Source of the DNA: Lophium mytilinum
Taxonomy: Eukaryota > Ascomycota > Dothideomycetes > Mytilinidiales > Mytilinidiaceae
NCBI GenBank assembly: GCA_010093605.1
Contig: MU004184.1
Span: 453,897-517,896 of the forward strand
Length of the DNA stretch: 64,000 bases
Direction of reading: 5' to 3'
Shown here: positions 7,961-10,332 of the stretch, piece after piece
Layout: each line of letters begins with the position of its first letter
Position numbering within the stretch: position 1 is the first letter of the stretch
The notes under the pieces: model-generated
What the model saw: the letters and a program-made list of their open reading frames with translations, nothing else
What the model was told of the DNA's origin: nothing
Databases searched by the model: none
Program-made: the position numbers and the translations under genes

Positions 7961-8899
7961 CCTCCTTTCGCTTCTCCCACAGTCGCCCTGGTCCACTAGA
8001 TATTATCGAGAAGCTCGATGGGGGTATCGAAAGTGTACAGGTATAATGGTACAGCTTCGGGACGTGGCGAAGGATTCGAAAGAGGTGTAAAATGACTTCG
8101 AGGCTAGGACGACGCGCTTCCTGAATTCGGCGAAAAGTCTCGATATGCGAAGCTGGGCAGCGAAAATTCATCGTGATCTTTCTGCGACACTCTGGATGCG
8201 CGCGAAGATGGAGAGGTGACGGTGCTTGTTGGCTTCTAGAGGGTCGATTGGATGGGAGGATTAGGCCAATGAGACCGACGCCAGTAACGACTTGAAGACT
8301 TTGGTATTCTGATTGAGAACAAACACAAAGAATGGAAGGCTCTTACCTAGCCGCTGGGATGGATGCGCTGAAGCTGCTGATGCCAAAGAAGCTCTGGTAG
8401 CGACGGACACCACATTCCTCAACACGGTGCCCCACGTGTCCATGACGGAGAGACAGAGATCTATCAAGGTTGTCTGCGAGAAGACAATGTCTGTTTGCTC
8501 GTTGGGGTATTCGTCATTCTCGTAGGTGTTGTGAGACCTTTCAGGCGACAAGCAGCGAGGATGGCATGTGAGATGCTTCAACTCCAAGCAGTCTCTGGAA
8601 GACCGCTTCAGCCTCCTTCTCCCACTCCTACGCGAGACAGGACACTTGTTGAAAAACAATGCAAGCAAGAAGATGGATGAAGGGAATAGAGATGACGCGA
8701 CATGCCCAGCCTGTGCAGTGCGGACGCGTTCAGGGTTCTCGCTCAGGACGTGACGCGTCACAGCAACATCACAACACCACAACATTCACATCACGAAAGC
8801 AAGAGGCACGTCGTAGGATCGCCAAGAGAGAAAAGCTTCTTCTTCGAAGACCCGGACAAGCCGAGCAGTTCAATGAAAAAGAGGTGAACAAAATGTTCG

Positions 8900-9193
8900 C
8901 GTCGGCCCGAGGCAGTGCAATACGAGCGACACAGTGCCCCTGAACATAGGCAAGCCCAGCGGCTCAGGGGACAGTTTCCAAAGATTGAGAAATCGAGGGG
9001 AGGCCCCGTAGGACCATTTCCAGCGATTAAACTGAAAAACACCTGTAAGATTGTTAGTGATGGAAGCAAACAGGATAGGAACAGGGAACTTACCAATACT
9101 ACACTTGATCTAAGCCAAAAGGCACTGTGAAGATTGTTAGTCATGATGTGGAAAGGATGGGGGTGGAGTTGGAACTTACAAGAGAGCTGAGGT
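8900..9193 (-). ncRNA. U2 spliceosomal snRNA, interrupted by two introns
   Basis: On the minus strand, removing two GT-AG introns yields a ~188-nt RNA with every U2 landmark. Exon 1 (about 9180-9193) ends CTCTCTT. Exon 2 (9094-9124) is TGCCTTTTGGCTTAGATC plus AAGTGTAGTATTG and contains the GUAGUA branch-site recognition sequence. Exon 3 (about 8900-9042) carries stem IIa with loop TTTAATC, stem IIb as a perfect GGTCC/TACG/GGGCC hairpin, an Sm-like site AATCTTTGG (complement of 8978-8986), stem III closed by CCCCTGA/TTCAGGGG, and stem IV with TATTGCACTGCC (8905-8926). Intron 1 is 9125-9179 (55 nt, GTAAGT, TGACTAAC, CACAG). Intron 2 is 9043-9093 (51 nt, GTAAGT, CACTAAC, TACAG). The spliced exon 2-3 joint restores the spacing of yeast and human U2 exactly. 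The outer ends are set by comparison with known U2, not by data. A TATA-like box lies 20-30 bases upstream. Confidence 0.9.
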
Positions 9194-9213: not shown

Positions 9214-9223
9214 AGTATTTATT
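9214..9223 (-). promoter_or_regulatory. TATA-like box of the U2 gene
   Basis: On the minus strand the sequence reads AATAAATACT, about 21-30 bases before the inferred 5' end of U2 (about 9193). This spacing suits a TATA element. Confidence 0.5.
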
Positions 9224-10332
9224 GCTGGCGAACGACGCTAGCTTGGCGTGATGACTCATCAGCGCTAGGCAGTTTACTCCGGGCCGTATAATGGCGACGG
9301 GGGGCCTACTGTGCTGCTGGCCAGTGACGGTGGATTGTTAGCCTCGTTACTGTGGCTCCGCTGTGGCTGGGATCCAACGGCGAGGGAGATCTGGTGCTCC
9401 GTAGCACTACGGGGAGCGCCTATGGTCAGTAATCCCGTGCAGCAGAGACTTCGCAAAGGCTTTGCACTGCCCCAATTGACTTTGTGGAAGATTGATTTGA
9501 ACTGGAGGCCATTGGCACAGCGCCAACTGGGGGCTGGTCCCAATTCACCTCCGGCAGTGATCATCTACGGAAGTAGAGGCCTTACTATGGCTAGATGGCG
9601 AGCCGCAGGACACTCTGCCCACCTTTCAGACATTCTATGTGAAGTATGGTGTTGTTGTGAAGCTCATAGGATCTTTTGTGTCTTCCTGCACTGTCGCGTG
9701 CCCGAGGCCCCTTACCCACCAATCGCAATCGCAACTCACAGCCGTTTAAACTACAGAAAAAGACCATATCTCTAGTCGCAATGATGTGGTCATCAGCAGT
9801 ATACAGAACACAATAAACTCATATCTCGTAACCCTTTCGCTTGACAGAGCTCTGCCTTCAGTCTAATCGTTGCCTTCCCCTCATCTGGCGACGCATTCAC
9901 ACTCTGCTACTTTCTCTCTACCAAAGCCGGCTCTACCTCATCGTTTTTCGAGTCATCCATATATCAACCTATTCTCAACCACAGATCCCTCCTCGCCTTC
10001 TTGATCCCCAAACGCGCGGCGCGGAACCCACTAGCCTATCTCGAAGCCACGGGTGCTAGAAACAGACGAGTATCAAAACAGAGGACAAAGACGCATTATT
10101 TACGTCCCCAGCAGCCAAAATGAGATCGACATCTGTCTTTGTGCTGTCTAGCCCTCCCAATCCCCGCGGAAACCAAGCAGAATATGGCGGAGCAAGATCA
10201 TACCAAGCAATCGCAAGCACAACAAAAAGATAAGGAAATACAGCCGCTTCAGATTCCATCCCATCTCGACGCGGACGCCCATCTCCAGACCCCCAACCAC
10301 CAACCTCCAACACACCAGCTTCCATCTCACCT
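9224..10332. other. intergenic, no supported gene
   Basis: Open frames here (for example 9311-9775 +) have no recognisable domain. The last ~300 bases are probably the 3' untranslated region of the VOC gene. A + frame from about 10184 (MAEQDHTKQSQ..) is Gln/His/Pro-rich and runs into the antisense of that gene, so it is not called. Confidence 0.4.

Follow-up and report, generated by a model that had tools for sequence, protein, structure and literature searches.

The U2 locus and its paralogs

The window analysed here, a stretch of 64,000 nucleotides (nt) from contig MU004184.1 of Lophium mytilinum (Mytilinidiales, Dothideomycetes), carries on its minus strand, at positions 8896-9193, a gene for the U2 small nuclear RNA (snRNA) that is interrupted by two GT-AG introns (Table 1). 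We consider it very probable that this is a genuine U2 gene, with an RNA starting at exon 1 and two spliceosomal introns, and that it belongs to a family of split U2 genes within a wider invasion of snRNA genes by introns. A split U2 gene with the same two introns had been recognized in the first-pass annotation of the sequence, and paralogs lacking one or the other intron, in which the corresponding exons are joined, bear this out. Its intron limits, its CTAAC branch sites and its placement of intron 2 just past the GUAGUA segment also proved exact on comparison with the other U2 copies, whereas its outer limits (8900-9193) hold at the upper end only, the body of this minus-strand gene ending near 8896. 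About 30 kb from the gene, the sequence encodes a protein with 100% identity to a metalloprotease of L. mytilinum.

The Rfam U2 model (RF00004), a scan with which had been suggested as a check, matches the unspliced window at 9136-8890 on the minus strand with 66 bits against a cut-off of 46, placing the U2 5' end within the tail of intron 1 and treating intron 2 as an insertion; besides U2, the Rfam scan of the window returned no other match reaching an E-value of 0.01. The exon limits were set by comparison with the other U2 copies of the same genome. After intron removal the window U2 is 189 nt long and starts with TCAGCTCTC; exon 2, aligned with the paralogs, contains the GUAGUA segment and stem I, and the stretch AAUCUUUGGAA at the expected place is the predicted Sm site. 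Both introns have a canonical 5' site, branch site, and 3' site with normal spacing, the distance from branch to 3' site being 11-12 nt in the U2 introns versus 5-21 nt in 25 candidate mRNA introns (a weak background set, drawn from open-frame joining over 301,166 bases, which gave 58 candidates as against 43 with a control pattern). The loose pattern GT..CTAAC..AG occurs at 28 places in the window versus 14-32 in each of ten first-order random sequences; since this pattern alone is not rare, the weight rests on the exact fit of the two introns to the gaps in U2.

Table 1. Features of the split U2 gene and its flanks (window coordinates)
Feature	Position	Strand	Remarks
Upstream element CCTAGCGCTGATGAGT (promoter-like)	9254..9269	-	81 nt before AGCTCTCTT of exon 1
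Stretch AATAAATA (TATA-like)	9216..9223	-	consensus match only
U2 exon 1	9180..9193	-	strand of U2:U6 helix II; 5' end approximate; contiguous with exon 2 in L005
Intron 1 (55 nt), GTAAGT...CTAAC...ACAG	9125..9179	-	same site in 8/9 U2 copies, absent from L005
U2 exon 2	9094..9124	-	stem I and branch-recognition GUAGUA; from alignment of copies
Intron 2 (51 nt), GTAAGT...CTAAC...ACAG	9043..9093	-	three bases past GUAGUA; same site in 3/9 U2 copies
U2 exon 3	8896..9042	-	stems IIa, IIb, Sm-like site, III, IV; 3' end approximate
3' element: TTTTCATTGA, CUUGU-loop hairpin, then CGAAGAAGAAG	8836..8879	-	also at other snRNA loci

The gene had first been treated singly, a view that has to be given up: the window copy is one member of a dispersed U2 family with nine matches over the Rfam cut-off in the 43.18 Mb assembly (24 contigs), and the U1, U4, and U6 genes are split as well. 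The count of nine is a lower bound, 46 of the 596 candidates having been scored. Intron 1 is present in eight of the nine copies and intron 2 in three (the window copy, L006, and L007), the latter site being uninterrupted in the other copies having that region. One copy, L005, has neither intron. Junction 1 is contiguous in L005 and junction 2 in L001-L005, which serve as natural spliced controls. The predicted spliced lengths are 187-189 nt in the seven full-length intron-bearing copies (187-188 in the six besides that of the window) and 163 nt in L010, while L005 measures 206 nt. Exon 1 reads AGCTCTCTT in all nine copies, a sequence also used by the script that located them. The intron interiors are variable and the splice signals mostly kept, with branch-site variants CTAAT in L006 and CTGAC in L007. 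In a tree of the eight spliced copies other than L010 only the clade of L001-L003 is supported, so that whether intron 2 was gained or lost does not follow from it.

When the 3' domain and 3' element served as a DNA query (18/18 candidates scored), three U2-like loci were added, L050, L055, and the truncated L058, and no further intron-less U2 came up, though the divergent L005 was itself missed by this search. A search for the exon 1-exon 2 junction found L005 only; its pattern derives from the longer stem I of L005 and fits genes of that type alone, the spliced forms of the other U2 copies differing from it at 10-12 positions. This search is hence silent on other intron-less U2 genes, for which the Rfam and 3'-domain searches have to be relied upon. 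Exact matches to the U2 core were absent from IMG/VR and GTDB contigs. Two of the added loci, L050 (C1:469868-470017) and L055 (C15:390169-390304), combine a U2-like 3' half and the 3' element with a different, mutually similar 5' half; they score 42.9 and 41.4 bits with the U2 model, under the cut-off of 46, and are possibly chimeric snRNAs.

Exon joining and shared flanking elements

The spliced exon 1 pairs with the 3' end of U6 in an 11-pair helix II of -13.2 kcal/mol (4/1000 shuffles as good), whereas the unspliced U2 5' end reaches -2.4 kcal/mol (805/1000). The first-pass expectation that intron removal restores the U2 stems is likewise upheld, in that 99.6% of 252 cells (36 named stem pairs over seven spliced copies) hold standard pairs. 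These seven exclude L005 and L010 owing to their poor alignment. Cells with a double-sided change number 12, against a shuffled mean of 4.6 (0/500), and seven pairs are changed on both sides, against 3.8 (5/500); the covariation score is 0.226 versus 0.157 in shuffles (0/500), and in slid versions pairing falls to 31-56%. Stems I and IV are invariant among the seven copies and thus uninformative by variation.

An upstream element of the TCTAGCGCTGATGAGT type precedes exon 1 by 80-86 nt in seven of the nine U2 copies (not L005 and L006) and, likewise at -80 to -86, in four of the six U4 copies, with a marginal match in L046 (p 0.038) and none in L042. Among the U1 copies it stands at -81/-82 before ATACTT both in those with an intron (L039, L041) and in those without (L031, L036). 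The equal spacing indicates that the transcription start goes with exon 1 and that the intron lies inside the transcript. Altogether 6/16 U1 copies have a match at p below 0.001 and L040 one at 0.003, the anchor of L040, and perhaps that of L035, being misplaced in this comparison; the other nine have none, and neither do the three U5 copies. Several of these nine U1 copies contain, by eye, a shorter ACTAGCGC about 70 nt upstream. The element matrix was trained on nine of these sites (six U2, three U1), whose own scores are therefore circular, and the U4 copies, L039, L041, and L010 are independent of it. Several snRNA copies have a TATA-like stretch around -34 to -45.

Downstream, all 31 U1, U2, and U4 loci from the Rfam searches have a 3' element comprised of TTTTCATTGA, a hairpin of 5-6 bp whose loop is mostly CUUGU or CUUGC, and GAAGAAG; the element is also present in six more loci, which were picked partly by it. 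The bases of the hairpin stem vary with compensation (CUCAG/CUGGG, CUCGC/GCGGG, CCUGC/GCAGG), a lead rather than a test, as the hairpin was located by best-fit search. The 3' element is also found at L063 (C4:136039), L064 (C1:91292), and L065 (C16:1413087), which by eye resemble decayed copies of U1, U2, and U4 and have no Rfam match at E-values up to 0.1.

Introns in the U4, U6, and U1 genes

All six U4 matches over the Rfam cut-off (41 of 2089 candidates scored) have an intron near the 5' end, placed after ATCCTAGTGCAAG in five copies (CATG in L045) and four bases earlier in L042. The spliced U4 5' end pairs with U6 (stem II) at -23.2 kcal/mol (0/1000 shuffles as good) versus -12.2 for the unspliced end (24/1000). 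A junction search allowing three mismatches, which covers the types of L043, L044, and L046 and not those of L042, L045, and L047, returned no contiguous U4 5' end. Of U6 there are 21 matches over the cut-off, seven of them split by an intron of 48-51 nt after ACAGAGAAG; these introns (L025, L026, L077, L079-L082) contain AGCTTCAAAA, a sequence also seen at the 3' end of several U6 copies. The 16 U1 matches, taken at E-values up to 0.001, all fall under the cut-off of 69.5 bits. In four (L039, L040, L041, L073) an intron separates ATACTT from ACCTTG and so breaks up the sequence by which U1 recognizes 5' splice sites, with the second half after the intron reading AACACG in L073; ATACTTACC is uninterrupted in eight, and the other four have altered ends. 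For the joined U1 end, pairing with a GUAAGU site reaches -11.1 kcal/mol (0/1000) versus -5.2 unjoined (150/1000). None of the three U5 copies is split. There are thus six intron sites overall, one each in U1 and U6 and two each in U2 and U4, and paralogs with and without an intron coexist in this genome for U1, U2, and U6.

The snRNA introns differ in composition from the candidate mRNA introns of the same weak set of 25: from donor to branch site, the snRNA intron groups average 2-8% G (in U4 for three of the six) versus 23%, and their mean pyrimidine content is 67-88% versus 53%. Intron 1 of the window gene and the U4 intron of L045 are alike in 22 of 23 aligned columns (z 8.3). Of 305 comparisons between introns of different sites, 12 had at most 3 of 300 shuffles as good, namely nine of U2 intron 1 with U4 (out of 48 such comparisons), two of it with U6 (a shared C-run), and one with U1. 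These figures indicate that a whole or partial intron has moved between U2 and U4 genes on at least one occasion. Introns of different sites are otherwise mostly not alike. The idea that all snRNA introns go back to one mobile family was rejected, as was a derivation of introns 1 and 2 of the window gene from each other, none of 24 comparisons between the two standing out.

The transfer between U2 and U4 could have proceeded by reverse splicing or by conversion between introns, and the data do not choose between the two. For the introns at large, we favor reverse splicing into snRNAs as the inferred route. It is quite possible, short of being probable, that ectopic recombination instead transferred part of one intron between U2 and U4 introns already in place, the insertions themselves being unrelated and old. 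The likeness is consistent with this in that it covers only about 23 nt and is seen in some copies only (U2 L007, L008, and L010), as are the promoter and 3' elements common to these gene families; however, conversion leaves unexplained why introns lie at pairing segments of four snRNA families.

We regard it as unlikely that the introns represent introner-like elements, mobile introns spread genome-wide that also hit snRNA genes. Such elements are known in Dothideomycetes (PMC4457414), and both their spread within a genome and their host class invite comparison with Lophium, where U2 intron 1 and the U4 introns have the 23-column stretch in common. However, this stretch was found in snRNA introns only: a 19-base probe of it with up to two mismatches hit seven genome places (versus three for the reversed control), three of them in U4 introns and the other four, by eye, without intron signals around them. 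A DNA search with window intron 1 returned only itself, a weak search in that the related introns of L007 and L010 were also missed, and the introns of the remaining sites are mostly unlike each other. Within these searches of limited sensitivity, we found no set of many near-identical intron copies in unrelated genes.

Spliceosomal RNAs that may depend on splicing

The exon-intron anatomy, the paralogs with and without introns, the pairing of the spliced ends, the promoter spacing, and the compensated stems can all be read from the genome, and from them we infer that splicing takes place. We propose that the U2 gene would be transcribed, probably by RNA polymerase II, from the upstream element with a start at exon 1; that existing spliceosomes would excise both introns to leave a U2 of about 189 nt; and that its 3' end would be trimmed or formed near the conserved hairpin element, with the product folding into U2. 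The mature 5' ends of U2 and U4 are expected at or just before TCAGCTCTC and ATCCTAGTG, respectively. This would form part of a wider invasion of U1, U2, U4, and U6 genes by short, pyrimidine-rich, G-poor introns, set into stretches of the 5' half whose pairing partners are other spliceosomal RNAs or splice signals.

Several observations weigh against this reading. Just past GUAGUAU the window copy reads UUGGUGUUU where most copies read CUGUUCUU, and it differs at 14-17% of positions from the other full-length split copies. Non-canonical donors occur in U2 (GTTCGT in L001, GTAAAT in L003) and in U4 (GCAAGT in L044 and L046, making them GC-AG introns; GTTCGT in L043). Further pair types in the U2 stems show no excess (16 versus 15.5 in shuffles; 262/500). 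L010 has intron 1 and has lost GUAGUA and stem IIb; it looks dead, and by this token some split U2 copies would be dead. Finally, L005 is intron-less and keeps U2 features, at 62-65% identity to the other full-length copies.

With introns in four of the five spliceosomal RNA genes, the machine apparently must splice some of its own parts first. The first-pass annotation had concluded that U2 here has to be spliced by the spliceosome itself before use; seven of the eight further U2 matches, which have intron 1, agree with this, whereas L005 with neither intron does not. Dependence of U2 on splicing is accordingly likely and, given L005, not proven. The case is stronger for U4, for which the assembly yielded no intron-less copy. 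Going further, we offer tentatively, and as a rather doubtful extension, the proposal of a spliceosome that depends on itself, in which all working U4 and nearly all working U2 would arise only via splicing of their own introns. These snRNA introns sit at U6-pairing bases, beside the branch-recognition segment, and, in some U1 copies, within the stretch that recognizes 5' splice sites. They would have spread among snRNA genes by reverse splicing inside the spliceosome, and snRNA maturation could then act as a feedback readout of splicing capacity.

An uninterrupted U2 gene elsewhere in the genome, with the window copy silent, had been named at the outset as a finding that would tell against a functional split gene; an intron-less copy does exist, in the form of the divergent L005. 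That the split copies are silent or minor paralogs, with L005 making the working U2, appears improbable to us. L005 does have GUAGUA along with stem I and a stem IIa, a stem IV with compensated changes (inner CTGG/CCGG replacing CTCG/CGGG), the 3' element, and, by eye, a TATA-like TATAAG at about -39, and L010 exemplifies decay among the split copies. However, L005 scores 88 bits with the Rfam model, below four split copies even when these are read unspliced (123-134 bits), and is without the shared promoter element (its best score has p 0.33), while the split copies retain splice signals and compensated stems, and no intron-less copy of U4 was found in the searches described above. Since L006, split and otherwise normal, also lacks the element and L005 has TATAAG, L005 may not be silent. 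That there is no intron 1 at all, mature U2 starting in the intron tail as Rfam aligns it (the CUUC there fits the consensus), is highly improbable given the poor pairing of this end with U6, the joined exons 1 and 2 of L005, and the constant distance of the promoter element from exon 1, on which grounds the unspliced reading was rejected; same-site introns with different sequences in loci on several contigs dispose of an assembly artefact.

To our knowledge, the snRNA intron cases known are those in U6 of fungi and in one yeast U2. The latter, the U2 of the basidiomycete yeast Rhodotorula hasegawae, was reportedly described by Takahashi et al. in 1993 as having one mRNA-type intron just past the branch-recognition segment. 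It resembles that of Lophium in the type of intron and, reportedly, in a position that matches intron 2; if so, the same spot of U2 was hit in two phyla. Lophium differs in its phylum, in having two U2 sites and a family of copies, and in the splitting of U1 and U4. Introns in fungal U6 are said to have been found by Tani and Ohshima in 1989 and 1991 and by Canzler et al. in 2016; the Lophium U6 introns resemble these cases, which are limited to U6.

In a further account, mRNA-type introns near the catalytic bases of fungal U6 are attributed to reverse splicing (PMC10484740). Fungal U3 snoRNA genes are described as having ordinary spliceosomal introns in their 5' part, by which paralogs may differ, with U3 and U6 named there as the sole small structured RNAs in which interruptions are known to be frequent (PMC5832005; Canzler et al. 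2017). The U3 introns are thus comparable to those of the Lophium snRNA genes in their 5' location and in paralog differences, although U3 functions outside the spliceosome. Our literature searches, in which subscription papers were poorly covered so that the negative is weak, brought up neither an intron in a U1 or U4 gene, nor four split snRNAs in one genome, nor snRNA introns in Lophium. Introns in snRNAs as such are of a known kind.

Introns in snRNA genes have so far been explained as footprints of reverse splicing in the heart of the spliceosome. Introns at six sites in U1, U2, U4, and U6 of a single genome constitute a natural experiment, in which it can be tested in one fungus which snRNA bases accept introns, whether these match contacts in spliceosome structures, and whether a cell can depend entirely on spliced U4. 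For genome annotation, the U2 alignment illustrates that covariance models can misplace the 5' ends of split snRNA genes by taking an intron tail for exon 1. As to genomic arrangement, a loose concentration of snRNA genes is seen on contig C4 at about 0.05-0.74 Mb, with 5/9 U2, 8/21 U6, 2/6 U4, 1/3 U5, and 1/16 U1 matches.
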